A stretch of 64,000 nucleotides of DNA from Fontisphaera persica. Its GTDB lineage: Bacteria > Verrucomicrobiota > Verrucomicrobiia > Limisphaerales > Fontisphaeraceae. The notes beneath the pieces are model-generated. The model was given only the letters and a program-made list of their open reading frames with translations, was not told the origin of the DNA and made no database searches. Shown piece by piece: positions 17,123 through 45,639 of this stretch. A program made the position numbers and the translations under genes. The first letter of the stretch is position 1; each line of letters begins with the position of its first letter. The stretch is from the NCBI RefSeq assembly GCF_024832785.1, contig NZ_CP116615.1:1488001-1552000 (forward strand), in the 5' to 3' direction.

Positions 17123-18157
17123 ATGTCTGAGCAGCTTAAAAACGCCGTGCAGAAGGCCGCCCGCGCGTTGGGCTTCTCCCTTTGCCGCGTAACGGATGCC
17201 CGCCCCCCCGATCCGGACCAACGCCTGCGTCAATGGCTGCAAGCGGGTTTTCACGGCGAAATGCAATGGATGGCCCGCTCCCTGCCCAAACGCGAAGACT
17301 TGCAGGCCATTTTATCTGAAGTCCGCAGTGTGGTCTGTGTAGCGGCTGCTTATCCGGCTCCCCCCGCCCCGCCCCCCGCCGGAGCAGGATTTGTTGCACG
17401 GTACGCCCGTGGTGCGGACTATCATCAAATCCTGGGGGGAAAGCTGGCTGAACTGGCCGCCTTGCTGAATCGCGAAGGCGGTGCCGGCACGCGCAGCCTC
17501 TGGTACGTGGACACCGGCCCCATCCTCGAGCGCGCCCTGGCTCAACGAGCTGGCATCGGTTTTATTGGCAAACACAGCCAGCTCATCAACCGCCATCATG
17601 GCAACTGGCTTTTGTTGGGGGAAATCCTGACCACCGTGGCTTTACCGCCTGATACCCCCGAACGCAATCGTTGTGGCACGTGCACCCGCTGTCTGGCGGC
17701 CTGCCCCACCCGGGCCATCACTGCACCCTTCACCCTTGATGCCCGCCGTTGCATCTCTTATCTCACCATCGAATTAAAAGGTGCAATCCCGGAGGAGTTG
17801 AGACCTCTAATAGGCACGCGCATCTTCGGTTGTGATGACTGTCTAGAAGTTTGTCCCTGGAATCGCTTTGCCGGCGAAGCCTCGCCCCTGCTTCAACGGT
17901 GGGGCCGGCAGGACTTGCAGGCGCCAGATTTGCTGGAATTGCTGCAATTGGACGAGGCTGGGTTCCGGCAAAGATTTCAAGGTACCCCCCTGCAAAGAAG
18001 CAAACGCCGAGGCTTGCTGCGTAATGTGTGCGTCGCCTTGGGCAACTTGGGCAGAACAGAAGCCCTACCTTTTCTGGAAAAGGCCGTCCAAGACCCTGAG
18101 CCACTCATCGCAGAACACGCCCGCTGGGCCATCAAGCGCATCCAAACCGACCGCTAG
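17123..18157 (+). CDS. queG: Epoxyqueuosine reductase
   Basis: 344-aa cobalamin- and iron-sulfur-dependent enzyme performing the last step of queuosine synthesis, reducing epoxyqueuosine to queuosine in tRNA. Two [4Fe-4S] motifs are visible: CGTCTRCLAACPTRAI (about residue 178) and CDDCLEVCPWNRF (about 239). They are preceded by the family segment GFHGEMQWMARSLPKR and the RYARGADYH region. The C-terminus (RNVCVALGNLG... ALPFLEKAVQDPEPLIAEHARWAI) is a HEAT-like repeat that usually caps full-length QueG. The ATG at 17123 follows the aroK stop by 4 bp; an upstream open stretch overlapping aroK was ignored. Confidence 0.95.
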   Translation: MSEQLKNAVQKAARALGFSLCRVTDARPPDPDQRLRQWLQAGFHGEMQWMARSLPKREDLQAILSEVRSVVCVAAAYPAPPAPPPAGAGFVARYARGADYHQILGGKLAELAALLNREGGAGTRSLWYVDTGPILERALAQRAGIGFIGKHSQLINRHHGNWLLLGEILTTVALPPDTPERNRCGTCTRCLAACPTRAITAPFTLDARRCISYLTIELKGAIPEELRPLIGTRIFGCDDCLEVCPWNRFAGEASPLLQRWGRQDLQAPDLLELLQLDEAGFRQRFQGTPLQRSKRRGLLRNVCVALGNLGRTEALPFLEKAVQDPEPLIAEHARWAIKRIQTDR

Positions 18158-18547: not shown

Positions 18548-19345
18548 CTATGACACCGGCAGCTTGGCGTGAGTACCATCGCAATAGGGTGGATTGTGCG
18601 TATGCTTGCATCCACACAATGCCACGCGCTTGCTTTCCGCCACTTCCACTTGCAGGGGCTTGAGGCCGGTGCCTTTGTGCGCTCCATCACAAAACGGCTG
18701 GTTTTGGGAGCGGCCACAGGCGCACCACCAGTGGGCGCCCGCATTGAGCGTGACAATGTAAGGACTGCGCTTGGCCATTAACGGTTCCATTGGCGTTTCA
18801 GGTTCAGGAGGGTCGGCTGCCACAGCGCCTTCCGGCGCAGCTTCGGCAGCGGGCGCTGAGGCGGGAGATTCGTCCTTGCGGCGGAAAAGGGCCTGCACGT
18901 CCGCCACATTGAGGTCGGTTAAATCAAAACTCACCGAGGGCGCTCGTTCCTGCGCCACCTTGATTTGGTTGGCGATGGTTTTGGCCGTTTCCTGAGCGTA
19001 ATACCGCACGGCGCCCACGCTGATGTCAGCGCGGAAAATGATGACGAGCATGCAATGCTCGTCCACGTTGAGCATGAGCGTGCTGCAACGCTCGCCCTGC
19101 TGATAAAGCCCTGGAAACTTGTCTTCATTCAGCAGGCCGGCCATGAACTGGACAGCATTGAAAGAATTGGAGGCCAACGTGGCCAGAACATCTGGAGGAA
19201 AGGCGTTTTGCTCGCCGGCCAGATGAATCAAATGGCCGGCTTTTTCGACCAGGAGGGCGGCATCGGCATCGGTCTTGCCGAGCAGCTCTTTCAGGGCCTG
19301 ATCCAGGCACTGAAAATCCTCCTCGATCAATTGCGGGAAACCCAT
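18548..19345 (-). CDS. Roadblock/LC7 protein fused to two CDGSH iron-sulfur motifs
   Basis: 265-aa protein in two parts. Residues 1-135 are a Roadblock/LC7 (MglB-like) domain: [16 protein letters not shown], an [18 protein letters not shown] helix, [21 protein letters not shown] and a final helix after [14 protein letters not shown]. Residues 136-190 are an Ala/Pro/Glu linker. The C-terminus holds two CDGSH motifs, C208-A-C210...PFC219-DGAH223 and C244-G-C246...PYC255-DGTH259. Each has the 3Cys-1His pattern that binds a [2Fe-2S] cluster in mitoNEET-type proteins. The start at 19345 lies 1 bp after the MglA stop, so the genes are co-translated. Roadblock proteins bind and regulate small GTPases; CDGSH clusters carry electrons or sense redox state or pH. 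A redox-tuned GTPase regulator is inference. Confidence 0.85.
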
Positions 19346-19346
19346 A

Positions 19347-19964
19347 TCACGCAATTTTTCTGCCGCCCAAATTGATGAATTTATGCAACAACATGCGCAC
19401 AATCATGTTCATCGTCTCAAACACCCCCTCGCACTTCGTTGCCGTGGCCGGAAACGACGGGACTTGCACATCGCGGTTGTTGAGCAGGAATTCCATGTAC
19501 TCAATGGGGGCTACATTCGGCAGGTCGCGCTTGTTGTATTGCAGCACGTAGGGGATGTCGTCGAGGTTTAACTTGAGCGATTTCAAGTTGTCTATCAAGT
19601 TCTGAAAGCTCTCTACATTTTCCTGCATCTTGTCGTACTGGCTGTCGGCCACAAAAACAATGCCGTCCACACCGCGCAGCACCAATTGACGGGTGGTGTT
19701 GTAAATCACCTGGCCGGGCACGGTATAGAGCTGGAACTTGGTTTTGTAGCCCTTGATGGCCATGGCCTCCAAAGGCATGAAGTCGAAAAACAAGGTGCGG
19801 TCGGAGCTGGTGGCCAGGGAAACCATTTTGCCCTTGGCCTCCGGGCTGGCCACTTGCACATTGGCATGGACCTGCTCCAGATTCGTGGTCTTGCCACATT
19901 TGGCCGGCCCGTAATAAACGATTTTGACCTGCAGCTCTTTCGTGGCTTGATTGATAATCGCCAT
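19347..19964 (-). CDS. MglA-type small Ras-like GTPase
   Basis: 205-aa GTPase of the MglA (gliding and polarity) family. G1 is YYGPAKCGKTTN (residues 18-28), the switch I region includes SDRTLFFDFMPL, and G3 is the MglA-style TVPGQ (81-85) instead of DxxGQ. The TRQLVLRGVDGIVFVADSQ helix-strand follows, G4 is NKRD (144-147), and the G5 region is ATATKCEG. In Myxococcus and Thermus, MglA-GTP sets cell polarity and activates type IV pili or gliding motors, while Roadblock proteins (MglB) act as its GAP. Here it is the middle gene of a three-gene operon between two Roadblock proteins (14 bp and 1 bp spacing), strongly suggesting they regulate it. The type IV pilus genes of this window are 20 kb away. 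Confidence 0.95.
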   Translation of the reverse strand: MAIINQATKELQVKIVYYGPAKCGKTTNLEQVHANVQVASPEAKGKMVSLATSSDRTLFFDFMPLEAMAIKGYKTKFQLYTVPGQVIYNTTRQLVLRGVDGIVFVADSQYDKMQENVESFQNLIDNLKSLKLNLDDIPYVLQYNKRDLPNVAPIEYMEFLLNNRDVQVPSFPATATKCEGVFETMNMIVRMLLHKFINLGGRKIA

Positions 19965-19978
19965 AGGTTGTTTGGGGG

Positions 19979-21703
19979 TTACATTTTCGACAGCTCACGT
20001 TCCAACTGCGCCAGTTCCGCCAGCGGGAGCGGTCGCTGAGGCTGGCTGACCACCGCCAGATACACCTTCCCGCACTTGCTCACACGCCATGCGGCGCCAT
20101 TGCAAGTGAAGGTAAGTCCTTCCAAATTTCCCGCGCCCAAATCCCGGGCATACTGGGCTGTGCGCTGAAAAAGTTGCGGAGCAAAAGCCGCCACTTTATC
20201 GCCTGCCAGGGGCGGCAACACCTGAGCAGCCACCGACAAACCATCCTCGGATGCCACCACCGCCCCGGCAATCCCGGGCAGTTTAATCACCGCTTGCACT
20301 GCTTCTGCCGGCGTCTTGAGGGTGATTGCCGGTTTGGCGGGCGGGACGGCCGGCGCTGGTGCGGGGGCAGCGGCTGGGGCTGGGGCGGGTTTGGGCGCTG
20401 CGGCAGGAGCAGGAGACGGAGCGACCGCCGGAGCTGCATGCGCTGCAGGAGCAGCAGGCGCTGCCGACGCGCCTTTGCCCACAAACATATCCGGGATATT
20501 GGGGTCCACCTCCACCTTTTTCTGGGGAGTGGGAAGTTTGGAAACCGCAAGGAAGAGCGGCGCCACCACTTTAAGCGCCAGTTCCACGGTCACATTGGCC
20601 TGGGTGGTTTTCAGGGAAGGATTGGTCCAGCTTAACAATTGTCCCCATCCAAACGCCACTTTGCCGGTCTTCAACGCCTTGCCCATCTCCTCCACTGGCA
20701 CGAGCAGAGTCCCCTCGGACAATTTCAACTGTTGGATTTCGGCCTTTATAGGCTCCGGCCAGTTTCCGCTCACAGCCGAAACGGGAACGGCCACCATTCC
20801 CGGCGGCGCCGTGGGAGCTGCGGCAGGCTCCGCCGCCGGTGCAGGCGCGGCAGCAGGCGCCCGTGCGGGAGCTGCGGGTTTGGCCGCGGTGGCCGCCGTC
20901 ATTTGTTGCAACAAATCGGCAGAAACTTTGAGCGGACCGGCAGGTTCGGCGGGTTTGGCAGGGGGCGGCGGTGGGGGCGGCGGCGGTGGTGACGGAGGTT
21001 CCACAGCTTTGGTTGCAGGAGCCGGTGCCGCCACTGGTTTCGGGGGCGGGGGCGGTGGTGCAGCAGGCTTGGGAGCAGGCGTCGGCGCGGGTACCTGTTT
21101 TTGGGCGGGTGTTTCCACCGGCGCAACGCCAATCACCGTGGTTTTGGGCGGGGTTACCGGCTCACCTTTGGGCCCAAACAAACCTGCCACGTCTTCGGGA
21201 ATCTCAATGACCTTCTGGTCCGTCCGCCGGCCAAAATCCGAGGGGGAAAGCCTTGATAAAACCTCGCTCAAAGGAATTTCCACCATTTTCTGGTCGTCCT
21301 CGCCGGCCGCCAACAAAGCCCCGGCGGCTGTCATGCGGCGCAAATCCCCAAACGAGAAGCGCACTGCGCCTGAGGGCAATTGCTGGGTCACCAATTTCTT
21401 GGGAATCAGAAGCATCTCGTTGGGATTGGCCACCTTGGGCTTTAGCGTCGGCGGCAATTTATCCATGATAACCTGGAGCGGTAGTTGCAATTCATCACCC
21501 GTGGCAGCGCGTGACACAGGAACTGCTGACGGCGCTGGTTGCGCAGGTGCCGCCGCTGGCTTTTCCGGAGCCGGAGGCGCAGGTGCTCCGGCGGGCTTGG
21601 GAGGCGCAGCAGGAGCCGGAGCTGCAGGGGCTGCAGAAGCGGGCTTGGTAATGGCCGGAGCAGGCGCCGGCTTTTTGAAAAGTTGTTTGAGTTTCTCGAA
21701 CAT
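19979..21703 (-). CDS. Pro/Ala-rich protein with duplicated unknown domain and C-terminal Roadblock/LC7 domain
   Basis: 574-aa cytosolic protein, first gene of the mglA operon. A basic start (MFEKLKQLFKK) leads to a Pro/Ala linker (12-66). Then comes repeat A (about 73-178, LPPTLKPKV... LLIPKKLVTQQL... VRFSFGDLRRM) and a second linker with a polyproline run (about 190-255). Repeat B follows (about 303-410, WPEPIKAEI... LLVPVEEMGKAL... VAFGWGQLLSW), then a third linker (411-458) and a Roadblock/LC7 domain (460-574, LPGIAGAVVASEDGLSVAAQ... and a final helix). The two repeats share the pattern P..lK..v....LL.P.......L..G.V.F.fG.L and end in IPEDVAGLFG and IPDMFVG. I do not recognise this domain. 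The protein is probably a scaffold that ties the GTPase to partners through polyproline and repeat modules. Confidence 0.8.
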   Translation of the reverse strand: MFEKLKQLFKKPAPAPAITKPASAAPAAPAPAAPPKPAGAPAPPAPEKPAAAPAQPAPSAVPVSRAATGDELQLPLQVIMDKLPPTLKPKVANPNEMLLIPKKLVTQQLPSGAVRFSFGDLRRMTAAGALLAAGEDDQKMVEIPLSEVLSRLSPSDFGRRTDQKVIEIPEDVAGLFGPKGEPVTPPKTTVIGVAPVETPAQKQVPAPTPAPKPAAPPPPPPKPVAAPAPATKAVEPPSPPPPPPPPPPAKPAEPAGPLKVSADLLQQMTAATAAKPAAPARAPAAAPAPAAEPAAAPTAPPGMVAVPVSAVSGNWPEPIKAEIQQLKLSEGTLLVPVEEMGKALKTGKVAFGWGQLLSWTNPSLKTTQANVTVELALKVVAPLFLAVSKLPTPQKKVEVDPNIPDMFVGKGASAAPAAPAAHAAPAVAPSPAPAAAPKPAPAPAAAPAPAPAVPPAKPAITLKTPAEAVQAVIKLPGIAGAVVASEDGLSVAAQVLPPLAGDKVAAFAPQLFQRTAQYARDLGAGNLEGLTFTCNGAAWRVSKCGKVYLAVVSQPQRPLPLAELAQLERELSKM

Positions 21704-21976: not shown

Positions 21977-22762
21977 ATGGTTGAACAGGATGTCATCATT
22001 CTGGCCAATGAGAATTTTACCGGACAGTACCACCGCCTGGTATTGCAAGCCGACCGCATTGCTCCGCAAGCGCAACCGGGACAATTCGTGCACCTTCGGA
22101 TTCCCTTGCTGCGGGAGGCCCTGCTGCGCCGTCCCTTCAGCATTTATCAGGTCAAAGACCAGACGTTGTCGGTACTTTACAAAACCGTGGGCAAAGGCAC
22201 GCATCAACTGGCACGCCTCAAACCGGGGCAAATGATGAATGCCATCGGCCCGCTCGGTCACGGTTTTACGGTTCCCGCCTCCCCGCAAATCAGGCCGCTG
22301 CTGGTGGCTGGCGGCTATGGCATGGCAGCCCTCTATTTATTGGCCGAACGCGCTCCTCGCGCCGGCGTGGTATTTGTGGGGGGTCGCAAGCAGGGAGACA
22401 TTTTATGCGAGGCCGAATTCCGCGCGTTGGGATGGGAAGTGCGGGCGGCCACTGAAGACGGCAGCTACGGCAGACGCGGGCTGGTCACTCTGCCTTTGCG
22501 CGAGGAACTGGAGCGCGACGCCAGTGGGGTGCGCCTGTATGCTTGCGGCCCGACGCCCATGTTGAAGGCCGTCAGCGCACTGGCGCACGAGTTCAACGTA
22601 GAGGCGGAACTGTCCATGGATGAACACATGTGTTGCGGCGTGGGAGTATGCCTGACCTGCGTCATCCCCGTTCGCACCAGTGAAGGCTGGGAATACCAGC
22701 GCACCTGTACTGAAGGGCCGGTTTTTACCGCCAACTCCATTGCCTGGGAGGTGATGGCATGA
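21977..22762 (+). CDS. pyrK: Dihydroorotate dehydrogenase B, electron transfer subunit
   Basis: 261-aa ferredoxin-reductase-like subunit that passes electrons from PyrD to NAD+ through FAD and a [2Fe-2S] cluster. The FAD-binding signature is RRPFSIYQV (about residue 45). The NAD-binding part begins LLVAGGYGMAALYLLAERA. The C-terminal cluster ligands are CCGVGVCLTC plus the later Cys in RTCTEGPVF. Its stop overlaps the pyrD start in ATGA (22759-22762), indicating translational coupling, and together they form the heterotetrameric class 1B enzyme of pyrimidine synthesis. The 272-bp divergent gap to the Roadblock operon holds a TTGACA at 21939 but no matching -10. Confidence 0.95.
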   Translation: MVEQDVIILANENFTGQYHRLVLQADRIAPQAQPGQFVHLRIPLLREALLRRPFSIYQVKDQTLSVLYKTVGKGTHQLARLKPGQMMNAIGPLGHGFTVPASPQIRPLLVAGGYGMAALYLLAERAPRAGVVFVGGRKQGDILCEAEFRALGWEVRAATEDGSYGRRGLVTLPLREELERDASGVRLYACGPTPMLKAVSALAHEFNVEAELSMDEHMCCGVGVCLTCVIPVRTSEGWEYQRTCTEGPVFTANSIAWEVMA

Positions 22763-39662: not shown

Positions 39663-41384
39663 GTGACAACCAATTTTGTGGCTGCCAAAGACGACTATTT
39701 ATTGGACCTGCTCATGGACATGGGCGTAGTAACCCATGACCAGGTGGCGCAAGCCCGGCAGGAAGCGGAAGCAGGCGGTGCCGGGGTGGTGGACACACTG
39801 CTGGCGCGACGCTGGATTACACCCCAGGACGTCACCAACGCCAAAGCCGTGTATTTCGGCGCGGAAGTAGTGCAACTGGCCGACCTGCGCATCGAAGACA
39901 GCGTCATCTCCTCCTTGCGGCGTGACCTGGCCAAGCGTTACCGGGCCATTCCCATTTATAAACACGGCAACACCATGGCCGTGGCCCTGGCAGACCCCTC
40001 CGACCTCGACACGATTGACGCGCTTCACCACGCGCTGAAGATGGAAATCGAGGTCAAGGTGGCCTCGGAAGCGGAAATTGACGCGGCGCTATCCAAGTAC
40101 TACGGCGCGGAAGACGACCAGGTGGGCATGATGATTCAAAACATCACCGAGGGTGATGTGGCGGTGCAGGCCATGACCAAGGCGGCCGGCGAGGATGATG
40201 GCTCCGTGGTGGAATCCGACGCGCCCATCATCCGGCTGGTCAACAACATGATTGTGGAGGCCTTCAAGATGCGGGCCTCGGACATCCACCTAGAGCCGCT
40301 GTCCAAATCCTTCCGTGTCCGTTACCGTATTGACGGTGTGCTGCACGAGATTAAAGGCCCCCCCAAAAAGCTGCAGGCCTCGATCATCAGCCGCATTAAA
40401 ATCATGTCCAACATGTCCATTGCCGAGCGCCGGATACCCCAGGACGGCCGTATCCAAACCTCGGTGGGCGGCAAAATGATTGACCTGCGCGTCTCGTGCA
40501 TCCCCACCAATCACGGGGAAAGCATCGTCATGCGTATTTTGGACAAGGAAGGGCTGCGGCTGGGACTGCCCGAACTGGGCTTTTTTACGGATGACCAGCA
40601 AACGTTTGAGCGTCTGATTGGTCTGCCGGACGGCATCATCCTGGTCACCGGCCCCACCGGTTCCGGCAAAACCACCACGCTTTACTCCGTCCTTAATTTC
40701 ATCAACCGTCCGGACCGTAAAATCATCACGGTGGAGGACCCGGTGGAATACCTGCTGAGCGGCATCAACCAGGTACAGGTCAACGAAATCGTGGGTCTGA
40801 CCTTCGCCACCGCCTTGCGGGCCATGCTCCGCCAAGCCCCCAACATCATCATGATTGGTGAGATACGCGACCTGGAGACCGCCTCCATCGCCATCAACGC
40901 CTCGCTCACCGGTCACCTGGTGTTCAGCACCTTGCATACCAACGACGCGCCCAGCGCCGTGACCCGTTTGATTGACATCGGCGTCAAGCCCTTCCTGGTG
41001 GCTTCCTCCACCCGCGCCATCATGGCCCAGCGCCTGGTGCGCAAAGTTTGCAAACGTTGCGCCGCCCCTTATGAACCCACCGAGCATGAGCGCCGCGTGC
41101 TCAACCTGGACCCCAACACCCCCGGCGCCAACTTCCTCAAAGGCCGCGGGTGCGGCGATTGCAATAAAACCGGCTACCGGGGGCGCATGGGCATTTTTGA
41201 GATTTTTGTGGTGGACGACGAAGCCCGCAAACTGATTTATGAGAAAGTCCAGGCCTCCATTTTACGCGCCCGCGCCCGCGAAACCGGCATGCGCACCCTG
41301 CGCGAGGATGGCACGCGCAAGGTGCTGGCCGGCCTGACCACCCCCGACGAGGTCATCCGCGCCACGCTGGCGGATGTAGATTAG
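39663..41384 (+). CDS. PilB/GspE-type assembly ATPase (first copy)
   Basis: 573-aa hexameric ATPase powering type IV pilus extension or type II secretion. The N-terminal MshEN-like domain (about 1-150) includes LMDMGVVTHDQVAQARQEA and AVALADPSDLDTIDALHHAL. The ATPase has SDIHLEPL, RIMSNMSIAERRIPQDGRI-like arm, Walker [11 protein letters not shown] (about 330), the Asp box, Walker B MIGEIRDLETASIA and His box [14 protein letters not shown] zinc site CKRC...CGDC is near 463-500. Start is GTG 39663. It leads the cluster pilB-pilT-pilB-pilC; pilT begins 56 bp downstream. Whether it serves pili or secretion cannot be decided because no pilin or secretin is nearby. Confidence 0.93.
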   Translation: MTTNFVAAKDDYLLDLLMDMGVVTHDQVAQARQEAEAGGAGVVDTLLARRWITPQDVTNAKAVYFGAEVVQLADLRIEDSVISSLRRDLAKRYRAIPIYKHGNTMAVALADPSDLDTIDALHHALKMEIEVKVASEAEIDAALSKYYGAEDDQVGMMIQNITEGDVAVQAMTKAAGEDDGSVVESDAPIIRLVNNMIVEAFKMRASDIHLEPLSKSFRVRYRIDGVLHEIKGPPKKLQASIISRIKIMSNMSIAERRIPQDGRIQTSVGGKMIDLRVSCIPTNHGESIVMRILDKEGLRLGLPELGFFTDDQQTFERLIGLPDGIILVTGPTGSGKTTTLYSVLNFINRPDRKIITVEDPVEYLLSGINQVQVNEIVGLTFATALRAMLRQAPNIIMIGEIRDLETASIAINASLTGHLVFSTLHTNDAPSAVTRLIDIGVKPFLVASSTRAIMAQRLVRKVCKRCAAPYEPTEHERRVLNLDPNTPGANFLKGRGCGDCNKTGYRGRMGIFEIFVVDDEARKLIYEKVQASILRARARETGMRTLREDGTRKVLAGLTTPDEVIRATLADVD

Positions 41385-41440
41385 CCCATGACGCCCAAAG
41401 TGAACTGTTGAAAATCTAAAACTAAGCCGCAGGTTAGTTT

Positions 41441-42583
41441 ATGTCCTATCAGATGTCTGATCTGTTGCAGTTGGTGGTCTCCGAAGGGGCCTCTGACCTG
41501 CACATTCGTGTCGGTGTGCCGCCGGTCATCCGGCTGCATGGCATCCTGCATCGGGTGGAAGGCCCCCCGTGCACCAACGAAGATACGGAGGAATTGATGC
41601 GCAGTATTTCCTCCGATGACCACATCCAGCAGGTGCGCGAAAACGGCACCGCCGACTTCGGTTTTGCCTTTGGCGACATGGCTCGTTTCCGCGTGTCCGT
41701 GTTCAAAGAACGTGGCCAGTTCGCCCTGGTGCTTCGCCAAATCCCCAACAAACTGCTGACCTTGGAGCAAATCGGCCTGCCGCGGCAGACCATCATGACG
41801 CTGCTGTACAAGCCGCGTGGTCTCATCCTGGTTACCGGTCCCACCGGTTCCGGCAAATCCACCACGCTGGCCTCGATGATTGACATCATCAATCAGGAGC
41901 GGGATGACGCGCACATCGTCACCATCGAGGACCCCATTGAATATTATCACTATCACAAGAAGGCCATTGTCACCCAGCGCGAGGTGCACGTGGACGTGCC
42001 CAGTTTCGCTGAAGCCCTGCGCCGCGTGCTGCGCCAGGACCCGGACATCATTCTGGTGGGCGAAATGCGCGACCTCGAAACCATCGAAGCTGCCATCACC
42101 GCCGCGGAAACTGGCCACCTGGTGTTCGGCACGCTGCACACCACTGGCGCTGCCAAGACGATTGACCGTATTGTGAACGCCTTTCCGATGAACCAGCAGG
42201 AAATGATCCGCATCCAGCTCTCAACTGTGCTCCAGGCGGTCATTTCCCAGTTGCTCATCCCGCGCTGCGACAAGCCGGGTCGGGTGGCGGTGTACGAAAT
42301 CATGATCAACACCCCGTCCATTGCCGCGTTGATTCGTGACAACAAGACCTTCCGCATTGCCTCAGACATTCAGACCGGCGCCAAATATGGCATGGTCACC
42401 CTGGACGGTTATTTGATGGAGAAATACATGCAGGGGATTATCGCCCGCGAGGAAGTCATCAACAAGTGCCAGGACCCGGTGACCATGATGCAGAAATTAC
42501 AGGAATACGACATCGCCAAGGCCGCCGAGGCCGCCCGGGCAGGGGTGGCCCCCACCGCCGCCGCGCCCGCGCCAGCTTCCTGA
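41441..42583 (+). CDS. pilT: Twitching motility retraction ATPase PilT
   Basis: 380-aa ATPase that drives pilus retraction. It has a PilT N-terminal PAS-like domain ([21 protein letters not shown]), then Walker [11 protein letters not shown], Asp box, Walker [16 protein letters not shown] and His box [25 protein letters not shown]. The retraction-specific motif is close to the AIRNLIRE consensus ([15 protein letters not shown]). The C-terminal tail is Ala/Pro-rich. It lies between two PilB-like genes with 12 bp to the second. PilT strongly suggests genuine retractable pili rather than only secretion. Confidence 0.94.
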
Positions 42584-42595
42584 AATGCGTAGCCT

Positions 42596-44299
42596 ATGCC
42601 CGACCTCATTCACGATCCTTTTCTGAACCTGATCCGCGAGCGCAGTCTGCTGGACGACATGCAGATTGAGGAAGTCGTTCAGGAGCATCAGCGCACCGCC
42701 AAGCCCCTCCACCAAATCCTGGTGGACTTTGGCCTCATGGACATGGAGACCCAGTTGCAGGTCAAGGCCGAAGCGCTGGGCACGGAGGTGGTGGAGCTGG
42801 AAAAACGCGAAATCCCCCCGGACGTGATTGCCACCATCCCGGCGGCGGTGGCCCGCATGTACCAATGCGTGCCGGTGGCGGTCTATGGCAACTCCGTGCA
42901 GGTGGCCCTGGCCGATCCCTTCAACCTCACCGCCGCCGATGACATCAGCGTCAGCAGCGGGCGCGAAGTCATCGTGGTGGTGGCTGATCCCAATGCCATT
43001 GAGCGCGCCATTTCGCGTTATTACGGCGAAGAAGGGGTGGACGTGAACAGCGCGCTGAAAGAACTGGGCGAGGATGAAACCATCGCCCGGGAAATATCCG
43101 AAGTCTCCGAGGAGAACCTTGGCGAGCTGATGGACCTGGCCAATGAAACGCCCATCATTAAATTTGTGAATCTGGTGCTCTACCAGGCCATTAAAGACCG
43201 GGCCAGCGACATCCATTTTGAACCTTTTGAGGACGAATTCAAAATCCGCTACCGCGTGGACGGGGCCCTCTACGAAATGGCGCCCCCGCCCAAGCACCTG
43301 GCCCTGCCCGTGATTTCGCGCATCAAGGTCATGGCCAATCTCAACATTTCGGAGCGCCGCCTGCCCCAAGACGGCCGCATCAATTTTCCCATGGGCAACC
43401 GGCAGGTGGACATGCGCGTCTCCTGCCTGCCCACCCAGTTTGGCGAGTCGGTGGTGCTTCGCGTCCTGGACCGCTCCGCCGTCAACCTGGACATCGAATC
43501 CCTGGGCTTCCCCAAATACGTTTATGATTACATGCTGGAGGCCATCCAGCAGCCCAACGGCATTATTGTTGTCACCGGCCCCACCGGCTCCGGCAAAACC
43601 ACCACCTTGTACTCCTGCCTGCGCAAGGTGAACACCATTGACTCCAAGCTTCTCACCATTGAGGACCCCGTGGAGTACGACATCGAGGGCATTATGCAGG
43701 TGGCCGTCAACGAGGCGGTGGGCATGACCTTCGGCAAGGCCCTCCGCGCCTTTCTCCGCCAAGACCCCGACATCATCATGGTGGGGGAAATGCGCGACGT
43801 GGAAACCGCCCAAATCGCCATCCAGGCCTCCCTCACCGGCCACCTGGTCTTGAGCACCCTCCACACCAATGATGCCCCCGGCGCAGTGACTCGTTTGATT
43901 GACATGGGGGTGGAGCCCTTCCTGATTTCCTCGTCTTTGATGGCCGTGCTGGCTCAGCGGTTGGTCCGCACGATTTGCAAGAAATGCCGGACCCCCTTTG
44001 AACCCACGGAAAGCCAATTGGCCCTGCTGAACCTTTCCCCTCACGATATCGGGGACAAGATGTTTTATTACGGTCGCGGATGCAATGCCTGCAACGATAC
44101 CGGCTACAAAGGACGAAAAGGCATTTTTGAGCTTCTGCCCATCACTGAACCCATCCGCATCCTCATTAACGAACGCGCCCCCACCGTGGTTATTCGGCAA
44201 AAAGCGGTGGAATTGGGCATGGTCACCCTGCGCGAAGACGGCTTGCGCAGCATCTTTGACGGTGATACTAGTATTGAAGAAGTCGTTAAGTACACCTAA
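42596..44299 (+). CDS. PilB/GspE-type assembly ATPase (second copy)
   Basis: 567-aa ATPase of the same family as the first copy but clearly divergent at the N-terminus ([21 protein letters not shown]). The MshEN-like region is followed by a [49 protein letters not shown] block. Walker [11 protein letters not shown] lies near 328, Walker [15 protein letters not shown], His box [13 protein letters not shown], and zinc site CKKC...CNACNDTGY. 14 bp to pilC. It is likely the motor paired with the downstream PilC, with the first copy a second motor; this is inferred from gene order. Confidence 0.93.
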
Positions 44300-44313
44300 C
44301 GACAAGTACCTTT

Positions 44314-45639
44314 ATGCCAAAATTCAGTTACGTGGCCATGGACTCCCGGGGGAAGGAGACCAAGGGCACTTTGGATGTCGGCTCCCAAAACGAGGCCATT
44401 TCCCGCATCAAGGACATGGGGTTGCACCCCACCCGCATTGTCCAAGTGGACAAAGATAAGGATAAAACCAAGGCCAAGCCCGCCGATACCAAGGGCGCCC
44501 CTGCCAAAAAAGGCGGCTTGCACAAGGAGATTAACCTTAATCTCAACATCAAAATCCCCGGCCTGACCGACCGCGTCAAAAGCAAGGTGCTTACCACCTT
44601 CACCCGCCAGTTGGCGACGCTGGTGGACGCCGGTTTGCCTCTGTTGCGCGGTCTGCGCGTGCTGGAAAAGCAGGAAAAACACCCCCTGTTGAAGAAGATT
44701 ATTGGGGACTTGGGAGCCTCCATCGAAAGCGGCAGCACCTTTTCCGAGGCACTGGCCCAGCACCCCAAGGTGTTCAACCGCCTCTACGTCAACATGGTCA
44801 AAGCCGGCGAGCTGGGCGGCGTGCTGGAAGTCGTGCTCAACCGTCTGGCGGAGTTCATGGAAAAGGCCCAAAAAATCAAGGGCAAGGTCATTTCCGCCAT
44901 GTTCTATCCGGTGGCGGTGCTGGTGGTGGCGGTCACCATCCTGGGCGTTCTGATGGTGTATGTCGTGCCCAAATTCAAGGCCATCTTTGTGGACCTCCTG
45001 GGTCCGGGCAAGGAGCTTCCCCAGTTCACCCAGATTGTGCTGGGGATTAGCGATATGATAGCCAATCATTTCATTGTCACCATGAGTGTTTTGATTGGCC
45101 TGTTCATTCTGTTTCAAATCTTCATCCGCACCAAAGCCGGCCGCAAAATCTTCGACCGCTTTAAACTCAACATGCCCGTGCTGGGGCCGGTGATTAAGAA
45201 AGTGGCGATTTCCCGTTTCACACGCACGCTTGGCACGCTCATTAGCAGCGGCGTGCCGATTTTACAGGCCCTGACCATTGTTAAAGAAACCTCCGGCAAT
45301 GTCATCGTTTCAGACGCCGTCGCCGCCGTCCATGAAAGCGTCAAGGAAGGCGAAACCATCACGGCACCTCTGGAAGCCTCCGGCGTTTTCCCGCCCATGG
45401 TCATCAGCATGGTGGACGTGGGAGAACAAACCGGCGCCCTCCCGGAAATGTTGATGAAAATTGCCGATAACTACGATGACGAAGTGGATAACGCCGTGGC
45501 GGCCATGACCTCGCTCCTGGAGCCTATCATGATTGTGTTCCTGGCGGTCATCGTGGGTAGCATTGTCATCGCCCTGTTCCTGCCCCTCATCTCCATCATT
45601 GACAGCCTCGGTCAGGAAGGGTCCGGGCCGGGAGAATAA
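44314..45639 (+). CDS. pilC: Type IV pilus/type II secretion inner-membrane platform protein
   Basis: 441-aa polytopic inner-membrane protein of the PilC/GspF family, the platform on which the ATPase turns. It has two T2SSF domains (about 85-210: TFTRQLATLVDAGLPLLRGLRVLEKQ..., and 290-410: SRFTRTLGTLISSGVPILQALTIVKE...) and three TM helices (about 190-215, 245-270, 410-435). The N-terminal segment carries a charged Lys/Asp linker (residues 45-75) before the first domain. Last gene of the cluster. No pilin or prepilin peptidase follows. Confidence 0.94.
   Translation: MPKFSYVAMDSRGKETKGTLDVGSQNEAISRIKDMGLHPTRIVQVDKDKDKTKAKPADTKGAPAKKGGLHKEINLNLNIKIPGLTDRVKSKVLTTFTRQLATLVDAGLPLLRGLRVLEKQEKHPLLKKIIGDLGASIESGSTFSEALAQHPKVFNRLYVNMVKAGELGGVLEVVLNRLAEFMEKAQKIKGKVISAMFYPVAVLVVAVTILGVLMVYVVPKFKAIFVDLLGPGKELPQFTQIVLGISDMIANHFIVTMSVLIGLFILFQIFIRTKAGRKIFDRFKLNMPVLGPVIKKVAISRFTRTLGTLISSGVPILQALTIVKETSGNVIVSDAVAAVHESVKEGETITAPLEASGVFPPMVISMVDVGEQTGALPEMLMKIADNYDDEVDNAVAAMTSLLEPIMIVFLAVIVGSIVIALFLPLISIIDSLGQEGSGPGE

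Follow-up and report, generated by a model that had tools for sequence, protein, structure and literature searches.

An MglA/MglB operon of Limisphaerales with a Roadblock scaffold and, in a few genomes, a tandem CDGSH domain joined to MglB

In a 64,000-nucleotide stretch of the Fontisphaera persica genome (NZ_CP116615.1, positions 1,488,001 to 1,552,000; hereafter the window), we found an operon that encodes an MglA-type small GTPase between two Roadblock proteins, one of which is an MglB homologue carrying a tandem CDGSH iron-sulfur domain at its C-terminus. The three genes lie on the minus strand with intergenic gaps of 14 bp and then 1 bp: gene 1 (19979..21703), an open reading frame (ORF) also found upstream of mglA in relatives, encodes a Pro/Ala-rich scaffold of 574 amino acids (aa); gene 2 (19347..19964) encodes MglA, 205 aa; and gene 3 (18548..19345) encodes the MglB-CDGSH fusion, 265 aa counted from its ATG. 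An earlier note, made from the letters of the sequence, had given the same ORF positions and gaps and had distinguished two different Roadblock proteins, and Pfam indeed finds the Robl_LC7 family in genes 1 and 3. On account of the conserved gene order, the identity of MglA and MglB, the intact cluster ligands, the ratios of non-synonymous to synonymous substitution (dN/dS) and the recurrent linkage with convergent CDGSH genes, all described below, we tentatively read the operon as an MglA/MglB switch of Limisphaerales and their kin, tethered to the membrane and perhaps serving pili or polarity, in which the GTPase-activating protein and guanine-nucleotide exchange factor (GAP/GEF) has acquired an iron-sulfur input. 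We put the chances of this reading at slightly under even.

The gene order is kept among relatives. A scan for MglA retained the best 80 of 227 relatives and is hence biased to close ones; within it, a scaffold gene lay directly upstream of mglA at 76/76 loci with at least 1 kb of upstream sequence and at 3 shorter loci, and mglB lay directly downstream at 73/73 loci with at least 500 bp of downstream sequence and at 5 shorter ones. The median gaps were 8 bp between scaffold and mglA (79 loci) and 4 bp between mglA and mglB. These counts bear out the claim of the earlier note that the genes form one module of conserved order, and scaffold-mglA-mglB is a conserved operon of Limisphaerales and near kin. 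In the F. persica genome itself (a single contig of 4.73 Mb, 97% complete), a search for Robl_LC7 returned only two copies at E <= 0.001, both in the operon. Because the order is kept in relatives and the fused CDGSH part has a dN/dS as low as 0.04, the arrangement is not due to chance. The operon was also seen on two contigs titled Proteobacteria (L073, L075), which group with verrucomicrobial loci and are probably misnamed bins.

A profile of the scaffold, searched against 240 genomes drawn from the phylum, matched 9 of them, that of F. persica included. Of the other 8, G190 and G343, both from the same class, share the gene order of the window, and in G236 and G339, which belong to other classes, mglA-mglB is accompanied by a scaffold gene on the opposite strand; no mglA match was present in the fetched stretch around the scaffold match of G263, G327, G338 or G350. 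The Pfam scan found Robl_LC7 in 0/4 of the scaffold-like proteins of G236, G327, G263 and G350, and in G236 the scaffold profile itself spans the Roadblock part (E 7.5e-9). A helix-hairpin-helix family of Pfam was matched above the cut-off in G236 and G327 and below it in G263, and was not found in G350. Given these differences in order, strand and domains, the wider scaffold family is looser than that of the order. Scaffold-like proteins of other classes at the loci L187, L190 and L191 carry a helix-hairpin-helix after the repeats (below the cut-off in L190), and those of L190 and L191 start with a basic amphipathic segment similar to the one described below.

The product of gene 2, placed by Pfam in small-GTPase families, had its best matches in a sequence search of the PDB with MglA of Myxococcus xanthus (E 8e-63) and of Thermus thermophilus (E 1.5e-59). 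In the alignment with MglA 5ymx, its Arg56 falls on the Arg of the DRTLFFDF motif (the intrinsic arginine finger, in G2), its G3 motif TVPGQ occupies residues 81-85, with Gln85 aligned to the Gln of the known TVPGQ, and NKRD is also present, all of which agrees with the earlier assignment of an MglA-type GTPase from the TVPGQ and NKRD motifs. Group 1 of these GTPases is defined by TVPGQ together with an Arg in G2, and its members have 240 aa or less and a coupled MglB gene (PMC4316618); the 205 aa of the window protein, and an MglB homologue encoded 1 bp downstream, fit those limits. A GTPase of Groups 2-5 (conservon-type and others), which have GTPGQ and a Thr in place of the Arg in G2 (PMC4316618), is excluded by TVPGQ and Arg56. 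Judged by its sequence, the gene 2 product is a canonical Group 1 MglA that itself supplies both catalytic residues, Arg and Gln. The available part of the 2014 survey mentions Verrucomicrobia once, under Group 5 (PMC4316618).

The N-terminal part of the gene 3 product (residues 1-135; 18941..19345, minus strand) is, by alignment and predicted fold, an MglB homologue with a Roadblock fold, and it is followed by a putative counterpart of the C-terminal helix (Ct-helix) of MglB. Pfam matched Robl_LC7 at residues 16-104 (E 9e-7), the PDB sequence search returned MglB of T. thermophilus and M. xanthus (E 5e-12), and Foldseek with the model of the fusion filled ranks 1-30 with MglB chains, whose template modelling score (TMt) was 0.84-0.93, with one chain at 0.77. 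The NCBIfam model for Thermus-type MglB matched with E 1.5e-16 at 60.9 bits, far under its cut-off of 200 bits. In the conserved C-terminal peptide (residues 141-158; 18872..18925, minus strand), residues 141-154 align with the C-terminus of M. xanthus MglB (up to its residue 157); the consensus of this counterpart in homologues is DLSxLNxxDxxxxF, and the model gives it short helical turns only, at a predicted local distance difference test (pLDDT) of 56-70. In M. xanthus, the Ct-helix (residues 147-157) docks into an MglA pocket remote from the active site and accelerates nucleotide exchange (PMC6785124, PMC11016934). Most unfused homologues stop a few residues after this counterpart, that is, at the point where the CDGSH domain is attached, and are mostly of ~160 aa. 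As MglB is typically a single domain, of 129-179 aa in 58/63 sequences (PMC4316618), the 265-aa product with its fused CDGSH part counts as an MglB homologue to which a domain has been added, and not as a plain MglB. Two further homologues were seen with C-terminal extensions of other kinds: one at L061:6617-7258 (+) has two CxxC pairs and is zinc-ribbon-like, with Pfam matches under the cut-off, and one at L020:2614-3285 (+) has a different extension of 64 residues with no Pfam match.

The added part (residues 187-262; 18560..18787, minus strand) is a tandem CDGSH [2Fe-2S] domain of CISD type 6 by its matches: Pfam found zf-CDGSH in two stretches (E 2e-18), and the tandem CISD type 6 protein 3tbn was matched in sequence (E 1e-22) and in predicted fold (TMt 0.79). 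Both 3Cys-1His sets, eight ligands in all, are intact in the window protein and in all five fused genomes, so the iron-sulfur motifs that had been noticed earlier in one Roadblock partner are complete. Over the CDGSH loci as a whole, a redundant set, both ligand sets were found in 75/82, the other 7 being cut, weak or degenerate matches. The domain is predicted to carry two [2Fe-2S] clusters, as CISD type 6 does. Compared with the same-genus copy, the Roadblock had a dN/dS of 0.03 and the CDGSH part one of 0.04; with the same-family copy, the values were 0.10 and 0.26. These ratios are rough, with dS at 0.9-1.8 and above 1 for the same-genus CDGSH comparison. The CDGSH domain is, by these estimates, under purifying selection, and its presence suggests that the switch may sense redox or iron.

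CDGSH genes are also found beside mglB without being fused to it. At the 72 testable loci of the best-80 set, 2 were fused (L003, L007) and 14 had a convergent CDGSH match 9-108 bp beyond the mglB match; L073, with CDGSH 4.8 kb away, and L030, with a weak match of 31 codons at a distance of 1.8 kb, were left out of the neighbour count. We then took the 167 genomes of the order with a completeness of at least 90%, 4 of which are fused (G000, G001, G002, G004). A fifth fused genome, G013, is 89% complete, stands outside this set and, judged by contig and sequence, is apparently the same as L003; the fusion is rare, with 5 genomes seen. An mglB match was present in at least 79 of the 167 genomes, an unfused CDGSH in at least 67 and both in at least 47, and in at least 19 of these 47 a convergent CDGSH gene lies within ~400 bp of mglB, all 19 having been seen on the DNA. 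A Fisher test of the co-occurrence of MglB and CDGSH gave p 1.6e-6, which, like the binomial for adjacency, ignores phylogeny, and neither is used as proof. On a tree of MglA and MglB (103 loci; duplicate loci were left out of this tree and of the 51-row CDGSH tree), the convergent-neighbour label changed 16 times, against a mean of 23.8 in shuffles, and was spread over many parts of the tree; the convergent CDGSH is either an old neighbour often lost or the outcome of repeated gains. The iron-sulfur Roadblock partner of the earlier note is thus present here, but as a general part of the module it fails, being confined to 5 genomes, even though a separate convergent CDGSH gene recurs. Two of the convergent neighbours look like decaying genes, with assembly error as another possible cause: that at L029:3315-3514 seems degenerate, has lost a cluster cysteine and is in addition truncated where its contig stops, and that at L023:7114-7224 (-) looks like a scrambled remnant.

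A convergent neighbour needs an inversion before it can be fused, and simple read-through is therefore no explanation of the fusion. In the CDGSH tree, the fused domain of G004 pairs with the unfused CDGSH from the same genome (100/90), and the remaining four fusions form a group (97/89), a topology suggestive of two independent fusions. Approximately unbiased (AU) tests did not exclude one: a single clade of the five fusions was not rejected for CDGSH (p 0.09), nor for MglA and MglB, where its fit is better than that of the quick tree (p 0.86), and two fusions are not claimed. The fusion has one origin or two, and a single fusion with later replacement of the domain is possible.

The scaffold ends in a Roadblock/LC7 domain of its own (residues 461-574; 19982..20323, minus strand), with a Pfam match to Robl_LC7 at residues 468-552 (E 1.5e-7) and a model pLDDT >90. 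The closest structures are Asgard Roadblocks, Ragulator p14 and MglB (VIA Z up to 18), and MglC (7ct3, Z 10.6), a Roadblock protein of M. xanthus and an accessory partner of MglB, is also among the matches. Matches to this domain took up the Foldseek and VIA-align lists for the whole scaffold, and the PDB entries that it matched in sequence, an acyltransferase and a ribosomal protein, were dismissed as Pro/Ala-rich matches only. Profile homology between the two Roadblock domains of the operon was rejected (hhalign probability 0.2%), and we therefore take their relationship to be one of fold alone. The model of the scaffold (mean pLDDT 76) has a short N-terminal helix, confident domains at ~71-151 and 303-388 and the Roadblock at 465-573, joined by Pro-rich stretches of low confidence. 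The long Pro-rich scaffold with repeats described in the earlier note proves to hold a real duplicated domain, as its two unnamed globular repeats, residues 66-165 (21209..21508, minus strand; pLDDT ~95 over 71-150) and residues 298-392 (20528..20812, minus strand), are homologous (hhalign E 6e-14). No Pfam family was found in the repeat region of the window scaffold; over 46 scaffold rows, Robl_LC7 was present in 43/46 and any other family in 2 rows at most. A short basic amphipathic segment at the N-terminus (residues 1-12; 21668..21703, minus strand) is a candidate membrane tether, given the consensus and a helix predicted at residues 2-8 with low confidence. The majority start over the 46 rows is MFGxLKxLFxK; the strict pattern occurred in 26/46 rows, and 37/46 had a looser amphipathic segment among their first 30 residues, against 5.0 in shuffles, counts that are biased because the starts of the homologues were picked by a script favouring such a segment. 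For that same choice of starts, a hydrophobic moment z >1 in 27/46 and a positive net charge in 40/46 are weak indications.

In the reading that we favour, the N-terminal segment of the scaffold would sit at the membrane and its Roadblock would recruit MglA or MglB, the MglB dimer would act as GAP and the Ct-helix as exchange factor. The state of the clusters, whether oxidised or reduced, or loaded or empty, would alter the reach of the nearby Ct-helix to MglA and so shift the balance of GTP and GDP, and the output would be the placement of the type IV pilus machinery; where relatives have CDGSH as a separate neighbour of mglB, its product may play this part in trans. The specific proposal of an iron-sulfur-gated GAP/GEF, in which the redox or assembly state of CDGSH sets the GTP/GDP state of MglA on a membrane-tethered scaffold, and does so in trans via the convergent gene in relatives, seems to us possible but doubtful. 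The redox input and the motor control suggested in the earlier note are likewise putative.

Several observations weigh against the favoured reading. The CDGSH part, constrained as it is, evolves faster than the Roadblock, and the fused CDGSH domains sit on long branches of their tree. Among the 79 genomes of the order with an mglB match, CDGSH is neither fused nor adjacent in 56 and is absent from the matches listed in 30, and in other orders of the class CDGSH and MglB shared a contig in 0/9 genomes that have both. The residues Asn37 and Arg98, named as GAP residues of M. xanthus MglB (PMC11016934), are Ala36 and His97 in the fusion by the PDB alignment; they are missing from T. thermophilus MglB too in these alignments, so they are not defining. 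The single-chain model of the fusion (pLDDT 86) has a predicted TM-score (pTM) of 0.57, which leaves the relative placement of the domains unfixed, and the Pro/Ala/Glu-rich linker between them (residues 159-186; 18788..18871, minus strand) speaks against a tight coupling in the window protein, where its 28 aa are disordered (blocks of ten at pLDDT 42-56); in the fused genome G004, the linker is of about 1 aa. A disordered linker would also suit a CDGSH domain that is a passenger, namely a general iron-sulfur or electron-transfer protein that stood beside mglB, became fused to it following a rearrangement and was tolerated because the C-terminus of MglB is free, keeping its own job and leaving MglA unregulated. 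Stand-alone CDGSH genes of the same kind are widespread in the class, and the window genome and its genus mate have one CDGSH match each, so that the fusion may be their sole copy; G002 and G004, however, hold a stand-alone copy besides the fusion, and the fused copy is therefore not needed there for the general job. The linkage of MglB and CDGSH moreover extends past the fused lineages (at least 19 of 47 genomes), and we judge the passenger explanation somewhat unlikely.

The pilus output is a separate matter. Some 18 kb from the mgl operon, the window holds a row of type IV pilus/type II secretion genes (39663..45639, plus strand), namely PilB-like (MshEN+T2SSE), PilT-family (41441..42583), a further PilB-like and T2SSF (PilC-like). 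In the same-genus genome G001, a PilT match lies ~22 kb from the operon. The PilT family was above the cut-off in 167/167 genomes of the order, with mglB present or not, so that its co-occurrence is uninformative as evidence of a pilus role and yields no link of the module to pili, which counts further against the favoured reading. Pilus machinery is present and nothing ties it to the operon. A GTPase switch, with an iron-sulfur input or with none, could instead serve another envelope or secretion machine, or the timing of cell division; such an output would accord with an operon that has no motility gene, with the absence of a specific link to PilT, and with the description of another verrucomicrobium with an mglBA-like pair as non-motile (PMC4476040). 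On the other hand, those Group 1 MglA proteins that have been characterised serve motility, polarity and the formation of pili (PMC4316618) and pilus-type ATPases are universal in the order, and we hold an output other than pili or motility to be unlikely. The genes flanking the operon are on the opposite strand and have other functions, queG ending at 18157 (+) and a pyrK-like/pyrD pair starting at 21977 (+).

Should the favoured reading be right, the operon would provide a direct molecular link from iron-sulfur or redox state to a small-GTPase switch, and a handle on the role of MglA in Verrucomicrobiota. With the scaffold comes a Roadblock family that has an unnamed domain in two copies, and the CDGSH domain here and the zinc-ribbon-like tail of one relative suggest that the C-terminus of MglB is a site to which inputs are added.

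Compared with known systems, the window proteins share with MglA-MglB of M. xanthus and T. thermophilus the TVPGQ motif and intrinsic Arg, the Roadblock fold of MglB and an aligned counterpart of the Ct-helix, and differ from them by the upstream Roadblock scaffold, the tandem CDGSH at the C-terminus of MglB and the replacement of the M. xanthus residues Asn37 and Arg98. The earlier note had contrasted the operon with known MglA systems using a simple MglB, a contrast that goes too far: Group 1 systems in which one MglA has two MglBs were already described in 2014 (PMC4316618), and RomY of M. xanthus works with MglB, whose GAP activity it stimulates (PMC9481161). The two-MglB systems resemble the window in having one MglA with two Roadblock proteins, but here one Roadblock ends a scaffold of 574 aa with two extra domains; RomY resembles the scaffold as an accessory partner of an MglB. 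The CISD type 6 proteins (MmCISD 3tbn, human CISD3/Miner2) have the same tandem motif, 3Cys-1His ligands and predicted fold, whereas the type 6 proteins described in PMC3174974 consist of the tandem motifs alone. The CISD fusions named are to a glutamate synthase domain (type 5) and to DUF1271 (type 7), and MglB-CDGSH is absent from the types described in the available part of that paper (PMC3174974). An MglB joined to a type 6 CISD was not found in the open-licence PMC papers searched, where those mentioning both CDGSH and Roadblock are, by title, rat or retina studies with a single mention each; the words Roadblock and fused are absent from the text of PMC5859297. The earlier note knew of no description of a redox-type module of this kind, and this stands for the architecture but less so for the idea, for which HGbRL of Methylacidiphilum, a proposed sensor, is a precedent (PMC4476040). 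In idea, HGbRL is the nearest one: of the same phylum, it too bears a metal-cofactor domain on a Roadblock, yet that domain is a haem globin at the N-terminus and the gene lies apart from the mglBA-like pair (PMC4476040), whereas in the window the iron-sulfur domain is at the C-terminus of the operon's own mglB product. The MglA-MglB type is thus already known, and what appears to be new is the CDGSH domain added to MglB.

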